A stretch of DNA of 52,930 nucleotides from Clostridia bacterium. Lineage in GTDB: Bacteria; Bacillota; Clostridia; Oscillospirales; Acutalibacteraceae. This document shows, piece after piece, positions 4,215 through 52,930 of the stretch. Every line of letters begins with the position of its first letter. Position 1 is the first letter of the stretch. The stretch spans positions 1-52,930 of the forward strand of contig JAFWZR010000029.1 in assembly GCA_017522225.1 (NCBI GenBank), written 5' to 3'. Below the pieces are notes generated by a model. It saw nothing but the letters and a program-made list of their open reading frames with translations. It was not told the origin of the DNA and did not search any database. The translations under genes and the position numbers were made by a program.

Positions 4215-5969
4215 TTAAACTTCCGTTTTCCTGAATAGATTTTTGAAGTCTTCGTCATTAAGCTCTGCGGCATTAACTCCCGCAGACTTAACCTTTTCTT
4301 CTTTTAATACCTTTATGCAATCGTTACACTCGGCAACGGTGTTGCTGATAGTACCTCCCATCGCACCGAACTGAGCAAGTCTGCCCATTTCTTCGGGAGT
4401 AAATTCTGCAGCAAACATTGAAAGTTCAATGCTTCTGCCGTTTTCGATACGCTCTGACAGCGCTGCGTAAACACGCCTGTTGAATTCCGTTATGAAAAGC
4501 TCTTCGCTGACATTATCCTTGATTTTACGGTAAAAATCAGGATTTAACATAAGACTGGCAATAAGCACCTCTTCCGCCTTAGCGGCACGGATGTGCTTAG
4601 CTTTTTCGGGATTCACTGCATCTTTCGGAGTAACCGTTTCTTTCACAATTTCGTTAAAGCGGTTCTTTTTCTGTGCCTCAAGCTTACGCTTGTACGCACG
4701 TCTTACCTCCTGCAGAATTGCATCCTTGCTTATGCTCATTTCCTGTGCAAGCTTAGCCGCATACGCATCCTGCTCAATCGCATTAGCAGTTGCAAGAACA
4801 CCTGCAACTGCAGTAAGAAATTTCGTTTTGCCGTCAATCGAATCAAGGTCGTACTTTTCACGTTCACGAAGGATTGCATATTCGATATCGTTTGCCGCAC
4901 CCTCTATGAGACTGCGAAATTTTTCCTTGCCGTAATTTTTGATAATTTCGTCAGGATCCTTTCCGCCCGTAAGCTTAAGCACGCGGATTTTAACTCCCGT
5001 TCTGCTGAAAATATCAATAGCACGTCGGGTAGCCTTCTGTCCCGCTTCGTCGGAGTCATAGGCAAGAACAACCTCCTGCGCATAACGTGAAACCAGGCGT
5101 GCCTGCTCCTGTGTCAGTGCCGTACCAAGACAGGCAATTGAATTGGTAAAGCCTGCCTGATGCAAGGCAATGACATCCATATATCCCTCGGCTACAATTA
5201 TCTGTGACGGATTGCCGTTCTTTGCAAAATTAAGTGCAAAAACGCCGTCACTCTTTTTGTAAACCAGAGTATCTGATGTGTTGATGTATTTTGGCTTTGA
5301 GTCATCAAGAACTCGTCCGCCGAAAGCGATTACATTACCGCGCAGGTCAATGATAGGAACCATTGCTCGGTTTTTGAAATTGTCATAATAGTGTGTGTGT
5401 CCGTTCTTTTCGGATTTGCGGACAAGGTTTGCATCAAAAAGTTCCTGATTCGTAAAGCCCTTTGAACGCATATGCTTTAAAAGTGCATCCCACGAGTCAG
5501 GTGCATAGCCAAGACCGAAGTGCCTTATCGTCTGCATTGTAAGGCGTCTGCCGAGGAAATAATCAAGACCGATTTTCCCCTGTTCAGACATCATTGTGGC
5601 ATGGAAAAACTTTGCTGCTTCGCGGTTTGCCGCAAGAATACGCTGACGGTGCCTAGCAAGCGAATCGTCATAACCGTCCTCAGGCATTTTCATACCCGCT
5701 CTTTCGGCAAGAACCTTCACAGCCTCCACATAATCAAGATTTTCGATCTGACGGACAAAGGTGATTGCATCTCCGCCCGCACCGCATCCGAAGCAATAAT
5801 ATGACTGACTGTCGGTATAAATCGTAAAAGACGGTGTTTTTTCATTATGAAAGGGGCAAAGACCTTTTACAAGTCTGCCTCTTTTTGAAAGATTAACATA
5901 GGGTGAAATAACACTTTCAATATCGGTACGTGCCCGGAGTTCAGTAAGGAACTCATCACTGATTGCCAT
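4215..5969 (-). CDS. dnaG: DNA primase DnaG
   Basis: Synthesises RNA primers for replication. The 584-residue protein has the N-terminal CHC2 zinc finger (C38, H41, C59, C62; [11 protein letters not shown] ... YYCFGCG), the RNA polymerase core with its TOPRIM segment ([15 protein letters not shown] and the acidic [11 protein letters not shown]), and a C-terminal helicase-interaction region. The start codon lies one base after the dgt stop (TAATATG), so translation is probably coupled. Downstream is sigA. Confidence 0.97.
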
Positions 5970-5970
5970 A

Positions 5971-6981
5971 TTATTCCCCCTTCATTACAACCCACGAACG
6001 AGGAACAAAAAGCTCTTCAAAGGTGTGCACCGCATACCTGTCCGTCATACCTGCAATGTAGTCACAGGCAGCACGCTCAACGCCTTCTTTTTCACGGATA
6101 ATCTTATACTCCGCGGGCATCTCATCGGGATGAATGAGAAAATACTCATAGAGCCATTTTATCATTTCAATCGCACGTGCTTCCTCACCCTTGCAGACGG
6201 GATTGGTGTACACTCTCTCGAACATAAAGCTGTGCAGGGTTGCAAAAGCATCGGCACAGTCCTCACCGAGGATAATATCGTTTTTACTGTTATTGACGGC
6301 AGAAAGAACAAGCTTATTGATACGCTGTGATTTATTCTGCCCCAAAGCATCACGGATATCGGCGGGAATGTCAGTTTCCTTGAGAACACGGGCATGAACT
6401 GCATCATCGATATCGTGATTTATGTACGCAATACGGTCGGCAAGACGGACTATTCTGCCCTCAAGAGTGAAAGCCTCCGTACCTGATGTATGGCAGACAA
6501 TACCGTCACGCACCTCTTCGGTAAGATTGAGTCCTCTGCCTTCTTTTTCGATAACATCTGCAACGCGCAGACTTTGCTCGTAATGACGGAAGCCTCCGTC
6601 ATAAACACTGTTGAGCGCTCTTTCACCCGCGTGGCCAAAGGGAGTATGACCGAGATCATGGCCCAGAGAAATTGCCTCCGTCAGTGTTTCGTTGAGCCCG
6701 AGTGCAATTGCAATTGTCCGTGCAATCTGTGCAACCTCGAGCGTGTGGGTAAGACGCGTACGGTAATAGTCACCCATCGGTGACAAAAAGACCTGCGTCT
6801 TGTGCTTTAATCTTCTGAATGAATTGGAATGGATAACACGGTCACGGTCACGTTGGAAGCAGGTGCGCAGCTCACACTCTTCTTCAGGGCGGAGTCTGCC
6901 ACGGCTTAAGTCTGCAAAGCAGGCATTGGGACTTAAAATCTTATGCTCATTCTCGCAGGTGATTTCTCTGACAGTCTTCAC
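5971..6981 (-). CDS. dgt: Deoxyguanosinetriphosphate triphosphohydrolase-like HD protein
   Basis: A dNTP triphosphohydrolase of the HD superfamily, releasing triphosphate from deoxynucleoside triphosphates; the substrate range here is unknown. The 336-residue product has the signature FRRLKHKTQVF, RLTHTLEVAQIA (first metal histidine), GHDLGHTPFGHAGE (HD motif) and a late DRIAYINHDIDD. This is the shorter Gram-positive Dgt-like form. A GTG at 6981 with GGAG eight bases upstream is preferred to the GTG at 6990, which touches that same GGAG. First gene of the dgt-dnaG-sigA operon. Upstream TATAAT near 7022 may be its -10 but no good -35 is visible. Confidence 0.92.
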   Translation of the reverse strand: MKTVREITCENEHKILSPNACFADLSRGRLRPEEECELRTCFQRDRDRVIHSNSFRRLKHKTQVFLSPMGDYYRTRLTHTLEVAQIARTIAIALGLNETLTEAISLGHDLGHTPFGHAGERALNSVYDGGFRHYEQSLRVADVIEKEGRGLNLTEEVRDGIVCHTSGTEAFTLEGRIVRLADRIAYINHDIDDAVHARVLKETDIPADIRDALGQNKSQRINKLVLSAVNNSKNDIILGEDCADAFATLHSFMFERVYTNPVCKGEEARAIEMIKWLYEYFLIHPDEMPAEYKIIREKEGVERAACDYIAGMTDRYAVHTFEELFVPRSWVVMKGE

Positions 6982-7058
6982 TTTTATCACTCCAATCGTG
7001 TTTTTATAACCCTCTACTTATTATATACTCCAAAAATTTTGCTTTTCCTTTAATAAAA

Positions 7059-7676
7059 TCAAAAATATTTAAATTCTTCTCCGATTTCTTCGGTGTGGAA
7101 CTTTCCGAAACTCATATCGACAAGCTTTGCATCAAAGCCTGCAACATCGTCGACAGGAAGCTTGAAGGTAACCGTAACATTATCCGCAAACTCAGTGTCA
7201 TCAATCACTCCGCCCATTTCGGGTATAAAGGAATTGAGTCTGCCGTAAAAATTATAGTCGCAGGTAACTCTGAGCACCTTGCAAAGCTTCATGGTAATAA
7301 TCTTACCCGCATCAACAGCAATCTTTGCCGTGTGCGAATATGCACGAACAAGACCGCCCGCGCCAAGAAGTGTTCCGCCGAAATAACGGGTGGCAACAAC
7401 AACGCAATCGGTTACATTCTCTTTTAAAAGAACATCGAGCACCGGTATACCTGCGGTGCCCTGCGGTTCACCGTCATCAGAATAACGGCGTACCTGTCCC
7501 TCGCGAAGCACATAAGCATAGACATTGTGGGTAGCATCCCAATGCTTAGACTTGATTGAGTTTATGAAGCTGACGGCCTCCTCCTGTGTTGTAACAGGCT
7601 TGATGTAGCCGATAAAGCGTGACTTGCGTTCGATAAACTCGTCACTCGATTCGTTGAGAATGGTTCTGTATTCCAA
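7059..7676 (-). CDS. yigZ: YigZ/UPF0029 family protein (IMPACT-like)
   Basis: A 205-residue protein of the YigZ family: N-terminal UPF0029 (IMPACT) domain with FIERKSRFIGY, DDGEPQGTAG and the glycine-rich RYFGGTLLGAGGL, and a C-terminal DUF1949-type ferredoxin-like domain. Related proteins are linked to translation control or act as dipeptidases, but the function is not settled. The frame runs farther upstream, but GGAGGTG lies five bases before a TTG at 7676 that gives the usual family start (M)EYRTIL, so a TTG start is assigned. The rpmE terminator abuts its ribosome binding site, leaving no room for a promoter between. Confidence 0.9.
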   Translation of the reverse strand: MEYRTILNESSDEFIERKSRFIGYIKPVTTQEEAVSFINSIKSKHWDATHNVYAYVLREGQVRRYSDDGEPQGTAGIPVLDVLLKENVTDCVVVATRYFGGTLLGAGGLVRAYSHTAKIAVDAGKIITMKLCKVLRVTCDYNFYGRLNSFIPEMGGVIDDTEFADNVTVTFKLPVDDVAGFDAKLVDMSFGKFHTEEIGEEFKYF

Positions 7677-46227: not shown

Positions 46228-46258
46228 CAATTATCATTATTGATTGGAGGTCATGAGA

Positions 46259-46639
46259 ATGGCAGTAACAAAACGCAGTAAGCAGCGCGATGCAATTGTA
46301 AATGAGTTGTGCCAAAGGCATGACCACCCCACCGCCGAGGAAATTTATCTGGCATTGAAGACAGCAATGCCTAACCTGAGCCTCGGAACGGTTTACAGAA
46401 ATCTGAATATGCTTTCCGAAGACGGAACCATTCAGAAAATTTCAGTCGGCGGAGCTGATCATTTTGACGGCAATGCCATGAATCATTATCATATGCTCTG
46501 TTCGGAGTGTAAAAGACTCTATGATGTCTCCTACCCCGTAATTGAGGATATAGAGGAAAAAGCAGTAAGCTTTGCGGACGGAAAAATTACATCACACACG
46601 ATAACGTTTTTCGGTGTATGTAACGGATGTCTGCATTGA
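46259..46639 (+). CDS. perR: Fur-family transcriptional regulator, PerR-like
   Basis: Metal-dependent repressor of oxidative stress genes. The 126-residue protein has a winged helix (HPTAEEIYLALKTAMPNLSLGTVYRNLNML), the metal-sensing part ADHFDGNAMNHYHMLCSEC and the zinc site CSEC and CNGC. An aspartate in the ADHFD region, as in PerR, suggests peroxide sensing rather than iron sensing, but this assignment is not proven. GGAGG lies eight bases before the ATG at 46259. It is followed 42 bases later by rubrerythrin and preceded by a PerR-like operator, so it probably controls this operon. Confidence 0.88.
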   Translation: MAVTKRSKQRDAIVNELCQRHDHPTAEEIYLALKTAMPNLSLGTVYRNLNMLSEDGTIQKISVGGADHFDGNAMNHYHMLCSECKRLYDVSYPVIEDIEEKAVSFADGKITSHTITFFGVCNGCLH

Positions 46640-46681: not shown

Positions 46682-47227
46682 ATGGCAAAATGGGTATGTA
46701 GTGTATGCGGTTATGTTCACGAGGGAGATTCAGCACCTGAATTCTGCCCGCAGTGCAAGGTTCCGGCAGAGAAGTTCACCAAGCAGGAAGAAAACAATCT
46801 TTCTTGGGCAGCAGAGCACGTTGTAGGCGTAGCTCAGGGCGTTTCTGAGGACATCATCATGGACCTTCGTGCAAACTTCGAGGGTGAGTGCTCAGAGGTT
46901 GGTATGTATCTTGCAATGGCAAGAGTAGCACACCGTGAAGGTTATCCCGAAATCGGTCTTTACTGGGAAAAGGCAGCTTACGAAGAGGCTGAGCACGCAG
47001 CAAAGTTTGCAGAGCTTCTCGGTGAGGTTGTAACTGATTCAACAAAGAAGAACCTTGAGCTCAGAGTTGCAGCTGAGAACGGTGCAACAGCAGGTAAGTT
47101 TGACCTTGCAAAGAGAGCAAAGGCAGCAAACCTTGACGCTATCCACGATACAGTTCATGAGATGGCGCGTGACGAAGCAAGACACGGCAAAGCATTCCAA
47201 GGGCTTCTTGAGAGATATTTTGGTTAA
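46682..47227 (+). CDS. rbr: Reverse rubrerythrin (NADH peroxidase-type)
   Basis: Non-haem iron peroxidase of anaerobes that removes hydrogen peroxide with electrons from NADH via rubredoxin-like centres. The 181-residue protein has an N-terminal rubredoxin domain (VCSVCGYVHEG, FCPQCKVP) and a C-terminal four-helix di-iron domain with EGECSE, YEEAEHAAK and the final DEARHGK (ExxH ligands). This reverse domain order is the clostridial type. GGAGG precedes the ATG. The last codons AAA, CAA, GGG and TTT are unlike the rest of the gene (AAG, CAG, GGT), and diverged copies of this 3' end occur at 50838 and 51444. Confidence 0.95.
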   Translation: MAKWVCSVCGYVHEGDSAPEFCPQCKVPAEKFTKQEENNLSWAAEHVVGVAQGVSEDIIMDLRANFEGECSEVGMYLAMARVAHREGYPEIGLYWEKAAYEEAEHAAKFAELLGEVVTDSTKKNLELRVAAENGATAGKFDLAKRAKAANLDAIHDTVHEMARDEARHGKAFQGLLERYFG

Positions 47228-47233
47228 TAGGAT

Positions 47234-47440
47234 ATGATACCTGAGCAATGTCCCTCCTGTCAGGAAACTGACGGTTGGAAAGAGGTTGTAAATCCTTTTA
47301 CCACAGGTATTCCTATCGGTAAGAATATGCGTATCAATATCGGCATTGTCCGAACAGGATGCTTTGGCTTTTATAAAGTTAAGTACCGTTGCGAAAAATG
47401 CGGTTTTGAAGATAAATATGATTACCGAGAAGATAAATAA
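47234..47440 (+). CDS. Small zinc-ribbon protein of unknown function
   Basis: A 68-residue protein starting MIPEQCPSCQETDGWKEV with CxxC, and ending YRCEKCGFEDKYDYRE with a second CxxC, so it probably binds one zinc. I do not recognise the family. It starts seven bases after the rbr stop, with only a weak AGGA just before the ATG, and would be translated with rbr. The gene is absent downstream of the two other rbr ends (50838, 51444), so it belongs to the inserted sequence and not to the ancestral operon. Confidence 0.7.
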   Translation: MIPEQCPSCQETDGWKEVVNPFTTGIPIGKNMRINIGIVRTGCFGFYKVKYRCEKCGFEDKYDYREDK

Positions 47441-47454
47441 TAAAGAGTTTTTCC

Positions 47455-47487
47455 GAGAGGGAACGGCGTATGCTGTTCCCTCTCTTT
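47455..47487 (+). terminator. Terminator of the perR-rbr-zinc-ribbon operon
   Basis: GAGAGGGAAC and GTTCCCTCTC (47455-47484) form a stem around a ten-base loop, followed by TTTG. Downstream, up to the recombinase, are repeated GTGTCC motifs and no gene. Confidence 0.75.
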
Positions 47488-47572
47488 GCGTTCCTGTGTC
47501 CTTTGCGTGTCCCTTCGCTTTTTTCAAAAGTCTAAAAGCAACGAAATGTGTCCCCTAAAAATGTGTCCCTAT

Positions 47573-48180
47573 TTAATTGTTTTCTGTCATATTAACAAGT
47601 TTATAAAAACTCGTTCTCTTTGTTTCAGTCAGTTCCATTGCGGTTTTGGCTGTTATCTCTCCCGCTTTCCAAGAGGAATAAACCTCGTTCCAATTTGCGG
47701 GGAACGCAAGCGCGGGGCGTCCTAATTTCTTGCCGTTCTGCTTTGCGGCTTCTATCCCCTCTGCCTGACGCTTGCGTATTGTTTCGCGTTCCTGTTCGGC
47801 AATCGTTCCCAACACCTCAATAAGAATGTTGTTGACCATTTCAAACACCCATTCTTGCCCTCGGGTAAGTCCATCATTGTTGTGGGTAAATCAATAACTT
47901 TTAAGCGTATGCCGTTCTCTTTGAAATACTGTAATTCGTTGTGAATGTCGAGCTTGTTACGGCTCAATCTGTCGAGTGATTTAACAACAAGCGTATCACC
48001 GCGGCGCAACATTGCGTTTTTAAGAGCCTGATACCCTTTTCGGTCTAAATCCTTGCCGCTCTCTTTATCTGTGACAATATCGCGGTCTGTTGCTCCAAGA
48101 GCCACAAAAGCGGCAATCTGACGGTCTAAATTCTGTTCCTTGCTTGATACTTTTGCATAATAATATGTGCGGCTGTTCAT
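47573..48180 (-). pseudogene. Serine recombinase (resolvase/invertase), frameshifted
   Basis: A site-specific recombinase of the small serine family, about 200 residues. The N-terminal half (48180 to about 47860) has YAKVSSKEQNLDRQ with the catalytic serine, and VVKSLDRLSRNKLDI; the C-terminal half (47848 to 47573) has IAEQERETIRKRQAEGIEAA and a helix-turn-helix region with KLGRP. The halves are in different frames. The reading at GGCAAGAATGG (minus strand, near 47855) would restore PEGQEWVFEMV if one C were added (GGCCAAGAATGG), so a single-base deletion is likely. It could also be an assembly error. The ATG at 48180 follows GAGAGGG. Confidence 0.85.
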
Positions 48181-48223
48181 ATTCGCGCCCTCTCTTATGT
48201 CTATGTTCGTATTATAGCACAAA

Positions 48224-48336
48224 TGTTCGTAAATATCGATACTTTTACGAATATGTTTGCAAATTAAATTTTATATTTTACAAACAGATTTTTTGTAAAG
48301 TTTTTGTGTGTTTGTAAACGTGTACCTTTGCGAACG
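48224..48336. other. Three dyads resembling a resolvase res site
   Basis: Immediately upstream of the recombinase are three imperfect dyads with half-site like TGTTYGYAAA: 48224-48253 (10+10+10, nine of ten paired), 48254-48286 (10+13+10, nine of ten), and 48309-48336 (10+8+10, seven of ten). Lengths of 30, 33 and 28 bases resemble the three-subsite res site of Tn3-type resolvases (28, 34, 25). An extra half-site lies near 48205. A TATAAT on the minus strand near 48210 may be the recombinase -10, so binding would also regulate it. The assignment is by eye. Confidence 0.55.
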
Positions 48337-48339
48337 ATA

Positions 48340-48380
48340 AGAAAAGAGAAAAACAGCGCGAAGCTCGCGCCCCGCGCTGT
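48340..48380 (-). terminator. Terminator of the GNAT-DUF3795 unit
   Basis: On the minus strand ACAGCGCG and CGCGCTGT (48353-48380) pair around a 12-base loop, followed by TTTTTCTCTTTTC. It lies 23 bases after the DUF3795 stop. Confidence 0.85.
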
Positions 48381-48403
48381 CATATCAGTTCGATAAATTG
48401 AAT

Positions 48404-48778
48404 TTAACGCTTGCCTGTATATATAAAATTTATCAACGTTTCTACATCATCAAAATCGTCATAATCACCATTTACACCTTCACGGTGGTAAACAACACCA
48501 TTTTGTTCATTCCTCTCAAGACAATTCAAGAGTTTTTCTTCACCATACTGCTTAATAAACAGGTTAAAGGTATATGGCTTTATTTTACCTAATAATCCTT
48601 TTCTGCAATCTTCGGTGCACTCATAACAATGTTCTATACCTTTTTCTTGAGAGCATTTTTTGTTTTCGCACCAATCGTTATCAGGACAATTCCCTGAATT
48701 GCAACCATTGCAAGAAATATTTTCAGAACATAAGCAACAAGCAAGACCACATCTTGCAATACCTAATTTTCTTTTCAC
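48404..48778 (-). CDS. DUF3795 domain protein
   Basis: A 124-residue cysteine-rich protein. GIARCGLACCLCSENISCNGCNSG, CENKKCSQEKGIEHCYECTEDC match DUF3795, found in many anaerobes with a cysteine cluster likely to bind zinc or an iron-sulfur centre. Function unknown. The frame extends to TTG 48790 with alternative GTGs; the GTG at 48778 (GTGAAAAGAAAA), preceded by AGGTTGGTG, gives the family-like start MKRKLGIARCGL and is preferred, but this is uncertain. It follows the GNAT gene closely, in the same transcript. The region is AT-rich and probably acquired. Confidence 0.8.
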   Translation of the reverse strand: MKRKLGIARCGLACCLCSENISCNGCNSGNCPDNDWCENKKCSQEKGIEHCYECTEDCRKGLLGKIKPYTFNLFIKQYGEEKLLNCLERNEQNGVVYHREGVNGDYDDFDDVETLINFIYTGKR

Positions 48779-48791
48779 AACAATCACCAAC

Positions 48792-49310
48792 CTAAATGTT
48801 ATATTCGTGATAGCCTAATTCGGTGCGATAGGTTTTTGAAGGGATAAAACCGAAACTTTCTATACAACTGATTTTTTCGGGAATGTTTGAAGTTTTAATT
48901 TTTACGCTTCCAATTCCTAAATCATCAACAAACTGTTCTATTGTCAGTTTAAGAATTTCTTTAAATGATTTTTCAGTGTTGTATTTTGAAGACAAATCAA
49001 TTCTCAAAACTCCCGCTTCACCACCAAAGATTTCTACAGTACCAATTGCTCTGCTGTCAGATTTATCAACAACTGAAAACCGAACATAATACTGCTTTCG
49101 ATATTCTTCTAACCAAAACCTAATGCAGTCTTCCATTTCACAAACTGTTGAATAATAAAAATCACTCGTACAAAAATCGGCGTTAAATCCCTTTACATTT
49201 TCTTTATCTGAATAACACATCAGCAAATCTTTTGCGTCTTCTAACTTTACCAATCGAAGAATAAAAGATTGGGTTTCATATATCGGACATTGTTCATATA
49301 CATTTATCAT
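48792..49310 (-). CDS. GNAT family N-acetyltransferase (RimJ/RimL-like)
   Basis: A 172-residue acetyltransferase of the GNAT superfamily: FILRLVKLEDAKDLLMCY at the start, AIGTVEIFGGEAGVLRIDLS in the central strands, and IESFGFIPSKTYRTELGYHEY at the end. The usual R/QxxGxG/A acetyl-CoA loop is not clear and seems replaced by the SKYNTEKSF segment, so it may be degenerate or have an unusual substrate. The ATG at 49310 follows AGGG; a TTG at 49319 is less likely. Its promoter is at 49381-49409. It is cotranscribed with the DUF3795 gene. Confidence 0.75.
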   Translation of the reverse strand: MINVYEQCPIYETQSFILRLVKLEDAKDLLMCYSDKENVKGFNADFCTSDFYYSTVCEMEDCIRFWLEEYRKQYYVRFSVVDKSDSRAIGTVEIFGGEAGVLRIDLSSKYNTEKSFKEILKLTIEQFVDDLGIGSVKIKTSNIPEKISCIESFGFIPSKTYRTELGYHEYNI

Positions 49311-49380
49311 AATACACAACCCTGTTTTAAAATTTTAATAAACCAATCATTAGTAAAAAAATCTTATTTGTTTGTTTTTA

Positions 49381-49409
49381 TTATAGATGATAAACAAATA
49401 AAAAACAAG
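49381..49409 (-). promoter_or_regulatory. Promoter of the GNAT-DUF3795 unit
   Basis: Minus strand TTGTTT (49404-49409), 17-base spacer, TATAAT (49381-49386), 70 bases upstream of the GNAT ATG. Confidence 0.65.
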
Positions 49410-49428
49410 GGTGGATAAGCTCCACCCC
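49410..49428 (-). terminator. Hairpin upstream of the GNAT promoter, possible terminator
   Basis: On the minus strand GGGTGGA and TCCACCC pair around a five-base loop (49410-49428) and run into TTGTTTTTTATTT. It would end a minus-strand transcript from 49434-49560, where only gene remnants are possible. Confidence 0.5.
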
Positions 49429-49433
49429 AATAA

Positions 49434-49561
49434 TTATGTAGCCTGAATTAAATTATTGACCGCAATTCCGTGCCGGAAGTTTCGAGAGGAACATTGCATC
49501 TGGGCGAAGCAGATGATATTCTCGACTTGTAGACTTTTTTGCAAACAACACGGTCCACGGA
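49434..49561 (-). other. Region without a convincing gene, possible remnant of a minus-strand gene
   Basis: Between the GNAT and acyltransferase promoters about 130 bases carry no ORF with a start and ribosome binding site. Minus-strand frames without start (for example one ending RPDAMFLSKLPARNCGQ before a stop near 49457) read like protein ends, and a terminator-like hairpin follows. This could be the 3' scar of a lost gene. I do not recognise it. Confidence 0.3.
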
Positions 49562-49590
49562 TTGAAAATCTCGCATACTTATGGTACAAT
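49562..49590 (+). promoter_or_regulatory. Promoter of the acyltransferase gene
   Basis: TTGAAA (49562-49567), 17-base spacer, TACAAT (49585-49590), 65 bases upstream of the ATG. Confidence 0.65.
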
Positions 49591-49655
49591 GATACTGGAA
49601 AAGTATCTGTGTAAACAGTTCGATAAGCCATGAATTTGAAAGAGAGCTATTACTG

Positions 49656-50627
49656 ATGAAACTGACAACAGAGCAAAGCAAAAACATTCAAATCTTAAGA
49701 GGATTAGCTATCATTGCGGTTGTATTCATACATAACACACCGATTGGACTGGCACAAGTTTTTTGCAGACCCTTTTTGAATTTTTCGGTCGGCCTGTTCC
49801 TGTTCCTTAGCGGTATGCTGTCCAATGCATCTAACTGGAACCCAACCAAAAGAATAATTAAAGTACTAATTCCATATGTTCTGTGGACTCTAATTTATTC
49901 TATTATGTACAATATTACTACCCCTATTAGCATTCCAAGTGCTTTTGTTAAGAATGTACTCACCGGTAAGGCTGCCGCAGTAATGTATTATATTTTTATT
50001 TACTGCGAATTTACCCTTCTTATTCCTTTTATTGATAGACTGGCAAAATCAAAATTTAAATACTGTGGATTTTTAATTGCACCCATTGAAATTGTAATAA
50101 TGCGCTCCATTCCCCTTATTGCTGGAATAGCAATAAATAAATACATTAGTATTCTTATGAGTATCTCCTGCTTGGGCTGGTTTACATATTTTTATCTTGG
50201 CTATTTGGTTGGCAATAAATTAATATCCATTAATGCGACCGCTACAAAGATTACGTTATTATGGATGCTTTCTATTCTACTTCAGATTCTCGAAGGGTAC
50301 TATTACTATACTCTTGGATATGAGAATTGTGGAACTCAACTTAAGTTAACCTCCATAATTTCCGGAGCATTATTTGCTTTGATGGCATACAATTATGTGA
50401 TTCATGGTGCAGTCAGAAATATAAAGGTGTTGGAATTATTAGGAGACAATTCCTTTGGAATATATTTCTCGCATCTAGCAGTTATGGCAGTTATTGAGCA
50501 CATTCCTGTTTATACTAGTTATGTAACATATCCTATAACAGCAGTTATTACAATTGTACTCACAACAATTTGCGTATTATTAGGAAAAAGAGTTTTAGGG
50601 AAATATAGTAAGTATTTGGCGTTGTAA
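49656..50627 (+). CDS. Acyltransferase family 3 membrane protein
   Basis: A 323-residue integral membrane protein with about ten hydrophobic helices. The N-terminal KNIQILRGLAIIAVVFIHN with its conserved His and FLNFSVGLFLFLSGM are typical of acyltransferase 3 proteins, which acetylate or acylate surface polysaccharides such as O-antigen or peptidoglycan. The late ELLGDNSFGIYFSHLAVM is also typical. The ATG is preceded by GAGAG at moderate distance. Codons are AT-rich (many ATA, TTA, AAA), unlike the housekeeping genes, which points to transfer. It has its own promoter and terminator. Confidence 0.9.
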   Translation: MKLTTEQSKNIQILRGLAIIAVVFIHNTPIGLAQVFCRPFLNFSVGLFLFLSGMLSNASNWNPTKRIIKVLIPYVLWTLIYSIMYNITTPISIPSAFVKNVLTGKAAAVMYYIFIYCEFTLLIPFIDRLAKSKFKYCGFLIAPIEIVIMRSIPLIAGIAINKYISILMSISCLGWFTYFYLGYLVGNKLISINATATKITLLWMLSILLQILEGYYYYTLGYENCGTQLKLTSIISGALFALMAYNYVIHGAVRNIKVLELLGDNSFGIYFSHLAVMAVIEHIPVYTSYVTYPITAVITIVLTTICVLLGKRVLGKYSKYLAL

Positions 50628-50687
50628 TCTATAACAAAGAATTCCAATATAGATTAAACACTGAATTCCAATTTACTCGAACAGATT

Positions 50688-50715
50688 AGGACCGCTGAAC
50701 GGTGGTCCTTTTTTC
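50688..50715 (+). terminator. Terminator of the acyltransferase gene
   Basis: AGGACC and GGTCCT (50688-50709) pair around a ten-base loop that itself can pair partly, followed by TTTTTTCG. It lies 60 bases after the stop. Confidence 0.7.
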
Positions 50716-50727
50716 GTGCCGTTTTGC

Positions 50728-50820
50728 TTCTGTATATAATATCAATAACACGGAAACAGCACAGCGGAATCGCATTTGTGTATTTGTTCATTCGTTGCCA
50801 TAAAGATATTATATACAGAA
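50728..50820. repeat. 93-bp element with perfect 16-bp inverted repeats
   Basis: TTCTGTATATAATATC (50728-50743) and its exact complement GATATTATATACAGAA (50805-50820) flank 61 bases without ORF. No target duplication is seen. It ends 17 bases before the second rbr 3' copy. It could be a MITE-like insertion, an integrase arm or oriT-like site near the end of the inserted element, or a large RNA hairpin. Confidence 0.8.
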
Positions 50821-50837
50821 ACTTTTTAGCATTTCAG

Positions 50838-50919
50838 CGATACAGTTCATGAGATGGCGCGTGACGAGGCTCGACACGGCAAGGCATTTCAGGGTCTTCT
50901 TGAGAGATATCTCGGTTAA
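50838..50919 (+). pseudogene. Second copy of the rbr 3' end (26 codons plus stop)
   Basis: From CGATACAG to the TAA it encodes DTVHEMARDEARHGKAFQGLLERYLG, the C-terminus of the reverse rubrerythrin with one change (F to L near the end). The first 30 bases equal the intact gene; then the sequences differ at synonymous positions. There is no start, so it is not expressed as protein. A terminator follows (50941-50978), as after the third copy. It reads like an attR-type remnant left by insertion into rbr. Confidence 0.85.
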
Positions 50920-50940
50920 TCCCCTGTTGAATAATAAACT

Positions 50941-50978
50941 AAGATGTGCTATCATAACGGTAGCACATCTTTTATTTT
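50941..50978 (+). terminator. Terminator after the second rbr 3' copy
   Basis: AAGATGTGCTA and TAGCACATCTT (50941-50971) pair around a nine-base loop, followed by TTATTTT. It begins 21 bases after the stop of the truncated rbr copy. The linker before it (CCCCT ... AATAAAC) resembles that after the third copy. Confidence 0.85.
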
Positions 50979-50989
50979 GGGGTGATTTT

Positions 50990-51373
50990 GTGAAGAAGAA
51001 AATTATAATTGCCGTTATTTCAATGCTTTCTGCTATTGTTATATTTATTGTGGCAGGCATCGGTTGGTTTATCTATAATACTGAATATAAACTTACTCTC
51101 GCAGGTACAGAAAACTCACCTGATGGTAAATACACCGTTACTTTTCAAATGGTCGGCAACCCCGACTGGCCTTTTGGTTCAACCACCGTTAAAATTACAG
51201 TAGAAGAAATAGGAAATAAGAAAACATTAAAGGTTATTGACACCTCAATTGATGATGACGGTGCAAAGTTCAGAGAAGATAATTGGGATGTAGTTTGGCA
51301 AGATGATTCAGTAAAAATTATTTTAAAAGGCAGTGAACAAGAAGATGCTGTTCATACAGTAATGTTACAGTAG
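50990..51373 (+). CDS. Membrane-anchored protein, DUF5412-like
   Basis: A 127-residue protein with an N-terminal membrane helix (about 4-26, IIIAVISMLSAIVIFIVAGI) and a small extracytoplasmic domain containing ENSPDGKYTVTFQM, STTVKITVEE and WDVVWQDDSVKIILKGS, a pattern like DUF5412 proteins. Function unknown. GTG at 50990 is the start: GGGGTG lies eight bases upstream. The longer in-frame ORF from 50849 is a shadow of the rbr fragment. It is the only gene between the second and third rbr ends, directly behind the terminator of copy two, with no clear promoter. Confidence 0.7.
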   Translation: MKKKIIIAVISMLSAIVIFIVAGIGWFIYNTEYKLTLAGTENSPDGKYTVTFQMVGNPDWPFGSTTVKITVEEIGNKKTLKVIDTSIDDDGAKFREDNWDVVWQDDSVKIILKGSEQEDAVHTVMLQ

Positions 51374-51443
51374 TTTTAGTGCGACAAAAGTGTGATTTAT
51401 AAAGATTAAAACCAAATAACCTTTATTTTAAGCACTGTTTCAA

Positions 51444-51500
51444 GACGAAGCAAGACACGGCAAGGCATTCCAGGGTCTTCTTGAGAGATATTTCGGTTAA
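51444..51500 (+). pseudogene. Third copy of the rbr 3' end (18 codons plus stop)
   Basis: From GACGAAGC to TAA it encodes DEARHGKAFQGLLERYFG, identical in protein to the intact rbr. The first 20 bases equal the intact gene exactly; then four synonymous differences follow (AAG, CAG, GGT, TTC here against AAA, CAA, GGG, TTT). These codons match the body of rbr better than its present end, so this copy is the best candidate for the original host gene end. Its terminator is at 51522-51548. Confidence 0.85.
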
Positions 51501-51521
51501 TCAATCCCCTATAAATAAACG

Positions 51522-51548
51522 AAGAGTGGCTGAAAAGCCACTCTTTTT
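51522..51548 (+). terminator. Terminator after the third rbr 3' copy
   Basis: AAGAGTGGC and GCCACTCTT (51522-51545) pair around TGAAAA, followed by TTTTT. Probably the original rbr operon terminator. Confidence 0.85.
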
Positions 51549-52591: not shown

Positions 52592-52691
52592 AGTTCGAAA
52601 TTTGTTACGCACCTTCAAAACTGAACAAAGACATGTTTTAGTAAATCTGAGTTTTGCTTTTCGCTTTTTTGTTCCTGAACCAATTCACTAT

Positions 52692-52930
52692 GGTCAAGCC
52701 CTCGACCTATTAGTACTGCCCAGCTGAAAGTATCACTACTCTTACACCTGCAGCCTATCAACCTCATAGTCCTTGAGGGGTCTTACTAGCTTACGCTATG
52801 GGATATCTTATCTTGGAGGGGGCTTCACGCTTAGATGCTTTCAGCGTTTATCCCGTCCGCACTTAGCTGCCCAGCCGTGCCATTGGCATGACAACTGGTG
52901 CACCAGCGGTGCGTCCATCCCGGTCCTCTC
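52692..52930 (-). rRNA. 23S ribosomal RNA, 3' end (partial)
   Basis: The minus-strand reading of 52692-52930 is the 3' end of bacterial 23S rRNA: the conserved final helix GGTCGAGGGCTTGACC, the upstream GCGTGAAGCCCCCTCC, and GAGAGGACCGGGATGG at the window edge. The remainder of the gene lies outside. The exact 3' end is approximate. Confidence 0.93.

Follow-up and report, generated by a model that had tools for sequence, protein, structure and literature searches.

Repeated rubrerythrin gene ends point to an integration hotspot with stacked inserts in a Clostridia bacterium and its relatives

The window analyzed here, the whole 52,930-nucleotide stretch of contig JAFWZR010000029.1 (assembly GCA_017522225.1) from a Clostridia bacterium of the Acutalibacteraceae, carries three copies of the 3' end of the rubrerythrin gene, rbr, with an insert between each copy and the next. 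The intact gene (46682..47227, plus strand, 181 aa) anchors the array, and its own tail, from an Asp (D) codon to beyond the stop, is copy 1 on the attL side (47171..47229, plus strand). Two extra tails follow on the same strand, copy 2 (50838..50919), whose left boundary is atypical at about -24 from its D codon, and copy 3 (51444..51500), the attR. The outer insert (47230..50838, 3.7 kb) lies between copies 1 and 2 and the inner insert (50921..51443, plus strand, 523 bp) between copies 2 and 3. All three are DEARHGKAFQGLLERY(F/L)G tails, with D codons at 47171, 50863, and 51444. The initial annotation had noted an rbr end present three times, and this is borne out by matches at 47090-47229 (E 1.5e-68), 50838-50920 (1.7e-25), and 51444-51501 (8.2e-19), values that rule out chance repeats as their source; at E 0.001 the 1.58-Mb assembly (69% complete) holds no match beyond these three. 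As the source is an incomplete draft of 35 contigs, the array could in principle be an assembly artifact, but we judge this extremely improbable, since its parts recur in three independent assemblies: genome G010 has the complete inner insert, G004 has the left end of the outer insert, and G161 has the resolvase module of the outer insert.

Copies 1 and 2 are identical over 30 bases and copies 1 and 3 over 20 bases, as claimed, and a terminator-like hairpin is indeed present behind both copies 2 and 3. The initial annotation also counted four or five differences in 19 codons. This holds for copies 1 and 3 (four, all synonymous) and for copies 2 and 3 (five, one of them L/F) but not for copies 1 and 2, which differ at eight codons, one F to L. 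Among the tail codons of copy 1, a comparison with eight further tails from the genus shows CAA and GGG in copy 1 only, and its AAA and TTT codons occur too in intact tails of other genomes.

Comparison with 17 other genomes of the same genus reveals both an empty and a singly occupied site. In G013 (L064), rbr runs directly into the terminator seen after copy 3, so that the predicted empty site, with a copy-3 type end and its terminator, was found; the G013 tail and copy 3 differ at 1 of 57 bases. This genus-type terminator (51521..51546, plus strand) also lies 3' of the rbr tail in G005, G013, and G010 and of the extra tail of G003. G010 (L063) carries the inner insert alone. Between stop and terminator, G005 (L062), G004 (L065), and G003 (L067) have a hairpin-rich sequence of ~50 bp (ACCCCTCTGTCACTTCGTGACATC...) that resembles a small repeat element.

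Extra rbr tails also occur well outside the genus. In samples of 300 family genomes and 394 order genomes, a tail query matched 217 of the former (E 0.01) and 284 of the latter (E 0.001). The extra tails were drawn from genomes with at least two matches (17 of 19 re-searched in the family set and 32 of 40 in the order set) and therefore give neither a rate nor a complete list. On the contig that holds rbr, we find 48 extra tails in 38 genomes from 11 families of one order, a few of them weak matches (E 0.005-0.07); this count omits second near-full rbr genes (G222, G043) and tails on a contig other than that of rbr. All 48 are 3' of rbr and in its orientation, at distances from 199 bp to 51 kb, the latter being the second tail of G476. 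Elements at the same codons in other genomes, which the initial annotation had suggested looking for, are thus present in further genera and families, nine of them with an integrase open reading frame (ORF). Tandem stacks are found as well: G201 and G347 each have a run of three canonical inserts. In G268 (L118), an extra tail and its downstream sequence (5545-7551) are duplicated almost exactly, like a tandem cassette repeat.

The extra tails tend to begin at a common point. Left boundaries were placed by profile score for 57 extra tails, leaving aside edge or unpaired tails (L114, L128, L157-L159, L162, L171, L185), G476, and a phage contig, L108. The boundary is at -3 from the D codon in 21 tails and between -4 and +1 in 36 of the 57. 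The usual start is therefore the D codon of RDEARH and not the 30-bp block CGATACAG..GTGACGA that had been proposed as the core. Among 25 copy pairs, not all of them independent, identity is at most 15/25 in the 36 columns ahead of the D codon and 21-25/25 at the first and second bases of the D and E codons, with 11 and 16 at the third bases. A dyad at the core, CGTGACGA-GGC-TCGTCACG, scores best of all centers in 91 distinct rbr tails (0.61, mean 0.25). As it is mostly set by the amino acids (synonymous recoding gives a mean of 0.557 and a maximum of 0.603 of 500) and is rivaled by a center at D-25 (0.588), this symmetry is only a hint of a meaningful feature.

Sequences next to the core, here called arms, share features of their own. 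Direct repeats of the form GTG(T/C)...GTG occur in 18 of 33 canonical arms (boundary -3 to +1), compared with 2 of 24 other arms and 74 of 5000 random 100-mers, by a rule written after the arms had been seen. Allowing up to two mismatches, the window's arm pattern is present in 3 of the 300 family genomes, each time at rbr tails (the window, G201, and G247), and a reversed control pattern is in none of the rows from these 300 genomes. Terminal inverted repeats give no general signal on canonical inserts (mean 6.7, against 6.9 for swapped partners and 6.4 for shuffled sequences); G091 and G443 alone stand out. In several pairs the arms are more alike than the tails, with arm/tail identities of 0.90/0.61 for G502/G425, 0.93/0.63 for G347.1/.2, 0.88/0.63 for G347.2/.3, and 0.98/0.87 for G201.1/.3. 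Arms that are 88-98% identical beside tails at 61-87% imply that the two often have separate histories, with a crossover near the tail start.

A tyrosine-integrase-like ORF, recognized by motif and related by BLAST, adjoins 9 of the 57 extra tails. It lies 70-211 bp from the tail in G003 (a fragment), G014, G091, G161, G366, G465, G508, and G587, and in G443 an integrase-like open frame overlaps the extra tail. Of these nine tails, six have their start in the range from -4 to +1; the other three begin further upstream (-10 in G366, -13 in G161, and -38 in G465). In G014, a 10.3-kb insert separates the intact rbr from the extra tail, and a 508-aa tyrosine integrase lies 113 bp from that tail. 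Searched against the 300 family genomes, this integrase matches itself and those of G091 and G161 (E 1e-30), all at the rbr end, and the G161 integrase finds the same three genomes (E 1e-40). G468 and G662 have an integrase-like ORF behind the rbr gene. Leaving aside the fragments of G003 and G476, the integrases are 23-68% identical, the G468/G662 pair sharing 68% with each other and 23-33% with the rest. Among tail-adjoining integrases, the Pfam scan took in G003 and G014 only; the three integrases scanned match general phage-integrase families.

On this comparative evidence, the 3' end of rbr is very probably an attB site for a tyrosine recombinase, at which elements integrate and leave an extra tail behind. 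The recombinase would act between the D-E-A codons of RDEARHG and the corresponding core of an incoming element, which would carry a coding-compatible tail of its own (18 codons and a stop). With such an element-borne tail, rbr would stay whole and a second tail would be left at the far end as attR. In the window, at least one event of this kind would have occurred, giving the inner cassette, and a second, outer insert would have accreted, its right end altered or otherwise made. The two inserts would act like cis-mobilizable elements (CIMEs) or like non-autonomous cassettes with an integrase presumably acting from elsewhere.

A number of observations speak against this account. Neither window insert contains a tyrosine integrase, the G014 integrase finds no relative in the window's 69%-complete assembly at E 1e-20, and no circular form and no excision were seen. 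Extra tails starting outside -4 to +1 number 21 of 57, window copy 2 included, and many extra tails are without arm repeats and without an integrase. Arm and tail are equally alike in G347.1/.3, G502/G347.3, and window/G010, and across the 39 most similar arm pairs the mean identities are 0.77 for arms and 0.74 for tails (0.68 for tails of all pairs). Were the tail supplied by the element, copy 2 and the intact tail of G010 (L063 1923-1979) would be expected to be near identical, yet they differ at 5 of 57 bases, even though the cassettes that follow agree at 99%. The intact tail of G009 (L068) is identical to that of the empty-site G013 despite a promoter-hairpin, cassette-like module behind it, on a contig that stops ~1 kb past the tail start and so leaves the module's second end out of view. 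G010 and G004 likewise have identical intact tails, though different inserts come next. Later exchange between tails would explain the misfitting tails of the genus, and within the genus it is likely that each insert supplied the tail of the intact gene. The initial annotation had proposed two tandem insertions, each bringing an rbr end. Insertion itself is upheld by the empty site of G013 and the single insert of G010; the supply of a tail by each insert is likely, with the tails of G009, G010, and G004 fitting poorly and the outer right junction atypical.

Another way to arrive at several rbr ends is the decay of tandem full-length rbr genes to deletion remnants. A second rbr-like gene does lie nearby in some genomes (L127, L130), but no same-genus genome searched has two full rbr genes on one contig, and 36 of 57 boundaries fall within six bases. 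The empty site of G013, the D-codon boundary, the arms, and the integrases largely refute this origin, which we regard as highly improbable.

The outer insert, in which no integrase gene was found, fits integration by a recombinase less readily. It begins with a 68-aa Cys-rich ORF (47234..47440, plus strand; Zn-ribbon-like by eye, no Pfam match) that also lies directly 3' of rbr in G004 and G008. In the stretch fetched from G008, this ORF is not followed by an extra rbr tail and may be no more than a neighbor gene in that genome. Next is a small serine recombinase (resolvase; 47573..48222, minus strand) split by a frameshift into two ORFs, and the 816 bp surrounding it match the left part of G161's rbr element at 93% identity. 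That integrase-bearing element (L117) holds a longer, single-frame relative of the split resolvase. Further genes are a Cys-rich 128-aa ORF (48404..48790, minus strand; no Pfam match), a GNAT-like acetyltransferase ORF (48792..49319, minus strand; a weak Pfam match below cut-off), and an acyltransferase family 3 gene (49656..50627, plus strand; PF01757, E 1.8e-21). At the right end is a perfect 16-bp inverted repeat (50728..50820, arms 50728-50743 and 50805-50820). The rbr element of G443, a genome of another family, contains the 36 bp at 50805-50840 unchanged, in its interior rather than at its end. The right junction has no arm repeats, and its boundary, about -24 from the D codon, falls at an 8-base match, CGATACAG. 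The outer insert may thus be either a long-core element now missing its right end or the product of an illegitimate junction. The long-core option is entertained because longer cores occur beside integrases in G366, G161, and G465.

The same junction fits a further alternative, homology-facilitated illegitimate recombination, in which a foreign rbr tail with its downstream genes recombines within rbr, the other end is joined at a short match, and the native tail becomes duplicated. The 8-base match, preceded by 36 bp that are internal to the G443 element, the 30-base identity of copies 1 and 2 at the outer junction, inserts with scattered boundaries such as those of G004, G335, and G395, and the first outer-insert ORF standing behind rbr in G008 with no extra tail in the fetched stretch would all suit it. 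It leaves unexplained the boundary common to 36 of 57 tails, the arm repeats (18/33), and the adjoining integrases, and boundaries upstream of the D codon are found beside integrases too (G161, G366, G465). No donor or pre-insertion strain was found for the outer insert. We consider this alternative rather unlikely.

The inner insert, by contrast with the outer, has the layout of a canonical, integrase-less, single-gene cassette: a putative promoter within a terminator-like hairpin, one ORF, a direct-repeat arm, and the core. The promoter-like sequence, TTGAAT-N17-TATCAT with a TG, overlaps a 13-pair hairpin followed by T residues (50927..50971, plus strand). As five promoter-like sites occur in this starting stretch against 2.7 expected, the promoter call rests on conservation. 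The hairpin module is kept in 11 aligned sequences from 9 genomes, every one behind an rbr tail, the G027 module being without the -35-like part. In the alignment, 98.6% of cells are paired and four pairs have both partners changed (a number that 2 of 500 shuffles reach), while the covariation score is reached in 0 of 500; these rows were chosen for matching, and kinship among them inflates covariation counts. The number of pair types is not above that of shuffles (414 of 500). We infer promoter and terminator roles for the module. The ORF (50990..51373, plus strand) encodes 127 aa with a hydrophobic N-terminus and is weakly DUF5412-like, below the Pfam cut-off. The right arm (51377..51443, plus strand) has direct repeats AGTGCGACAAAAGTGTG and ends in TTTCAA ahead of the core. 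Core and arm are kept, there is no integrase homology, and transfer genes are lacking, judged from the ORF list alone. Relatives of the cassette ORF occur in 5 other genomes among the 300 (L138-L142), with no rbr tail beside them in the fetched stretches. The ORF family is therefore not confined to rbr, and the ORF was dropped as a marker of the site.

Between the window and G010, the inner insert is identical at 518 of 523 aligned bases (99.0%), whereas rbr up to the D codon is 92.6% identical and the stretch before rbr 86.2%. The insert is therefore younger than the divergence of its hosts, and the cassette appears to have moved between species. How such compact inserts move is a separate matter. 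They could, somewhat doubtfully, be single-gene cassettes without an integrase that are moved in trans at rbr by the integrases of autonomous elements or phages, stacking into arrays in integron fashion with the coding end of a housekeeping gene, rbr, as their attachment site. Each would be built as rbr tail with stop, promoter in a terminator hairpin, ORF, and an arm of ~70 bp with core, and the promoter-hairpin module would end transcription of rbr and start that of the cargo. The best indication that a single recombinase could act on both kinds of element is the 72-82% identity between the arm of the integrase-bearing G091 and those of G338, G247, and G201.2, which have no integrase.

The compact inserts may instead be ordinary CIMEs, that is, deletion derivatives of larger integrative and conjugative elements (ICEs), integrative and mobilizable elements (IMEs), or prophages in which attL and attR survive, with no mobility in trans; we give this about an even chance. 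CIMEs and microCIMEs are described as common at 3' gene ends in streptococci (PMC5704250, PMC7563491), and one resolvase module is common to the outer insert and to the G161 element, which has an integrase. Against such an origin, 21 of 26 inserts with both ends in view show no integrase homology and 5 do (tblastn, E 0.01), in a set for which the boundary rule was eased by a base or two and G354 added by hand. The ORF stops 69-74 bp before the core in four cassettes (the window, G201.2, G247.1, and G354.1) whose ORFs are dissimilar by eye, the promoter-hairpin module is common to 9 genomes, and the cassette of the window and G010 is far more alike (99.0%) than their rbr genes (92.6%).

A phage may use the same site. 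In the 18.6-kb IMG/VR contig L108, a 30-residue rbr tail has genes for a helicase, a Sak-like annealing protein, and an integrase to one side of it. To its other side is a terminase small subunit, with four ORFs in between that have no PHROG match; TCTGTC direct repeats flank the tail on both sides. This tail is an apparent phage attP, the alternative being the junction of two tandem prophages. L108 was the sole match when IMG/VR was scanned with two tail patterns. In the same database, the G014 integrase has no match and the L108 integrase matches its own contig only; in phage records, the latter has no match at E 1e-20. Thirteen phage records match the rbr tail at E up to 10, the last one weakly. 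Nine of these were examined: six match nearly the whole query, two are cut by the contig end, and MT838577 is the sole one whose match starts at RDEARH. Five integrase queries gave no match in these nine records.

Integration at a gene's 3' end with tandem accretion is a known kind of event, seen with CIMEs and at bacA in the island PAISt. In Streptomyces turgidiscabies, the two modules of PAISt are bounded by attL, an internal attI, and attR, which are copies of the bacA 3' end; the recombinase is of the tyrosine type, the core is palindromic, and related islands have integrase remnants (PMC4057263). The window is similar in that three copies of a gene's 3' end delimit two modules. It differs in gene and organism and in its inserts of 0.5 and 3.7 kb, without an integrase, whereas PAISt has modules of 105 and 569 kb, a functional integrase, and shown excision (PMC4057263). 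In Streptococcus salivarius, CIMEs and microCIMEs lie in accretion at the 3' ends of rpsI, rpmG, fda, or rplL (PMC7563491), and a review on IMEs and CIMEs gives the same principle at other genes (PMC5704250). Like these, the window inserts lack an integrase, are bounded by gene-end repeats, and form a tandem stack at a conserved protein gene's 3' end. They differ in that the target is rubrerythrin and that several compact inserts have common end modules around different single genes.

There is also a likeness to integrons in single-gene cassettes stacked at one site with an integrase presumably acting in trans. The rbr inserts differ from integron cassettes in being bounded by ordinary gene pieces instead of attC, in having phage-type integrases, and in apparently carrying their own promoters. 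The attC boundaries and IntI-type integrase of integron cassettes were not seen, the boundaries being rbr tails, though no search with attC or IntI models was made. A literature search, judged mostly by titles and the openings of abstracts, did not turn up the rubrerythrin coding end as an integration site. By that search, the target gene, the breadth, and the compact cassettes with common ends that may move in trans may be new. The coding end of an oxidative-stress gene would be an integration hotspot in at least 11 families of one order, used by integrative elements and apparently by a phage. Extra rbr tails offer a simple handle for finding mobile elements and their cargo in these bacteria, and the compact cassettes with their common ends make it possible to test whether non-autonomous gene cassettes exist apart from integrons.

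Cargo in other genomes, judged by eye from translations, includes GNAT-like and ferritin-like proteins, small membrane proteins, and sortase/pilin genes. In G275 (L126) and G202 (L132), sortase, signal-peptidase, and pilin-like genes, again by eye, lie upstream of extra rbr tails. The cassette cargo of G338 (L186) is ferritin-like by eye, an iron/oxidative-stress theme next to rubrerythrin. In the window, the native flank upstream of rbr is an ORF (46244..46639, plus strand) that, by its sequence, probably encodes a Fur/PerR-type regulator; this flank is matched in same-genus genomes. At the other end, ~1.2 kb from copy 3, the window ends in a minus-strand 23S rRNA gene, whose 3' part lies at 52690-52930 (Rfam RF02541, E 1.2e-68).

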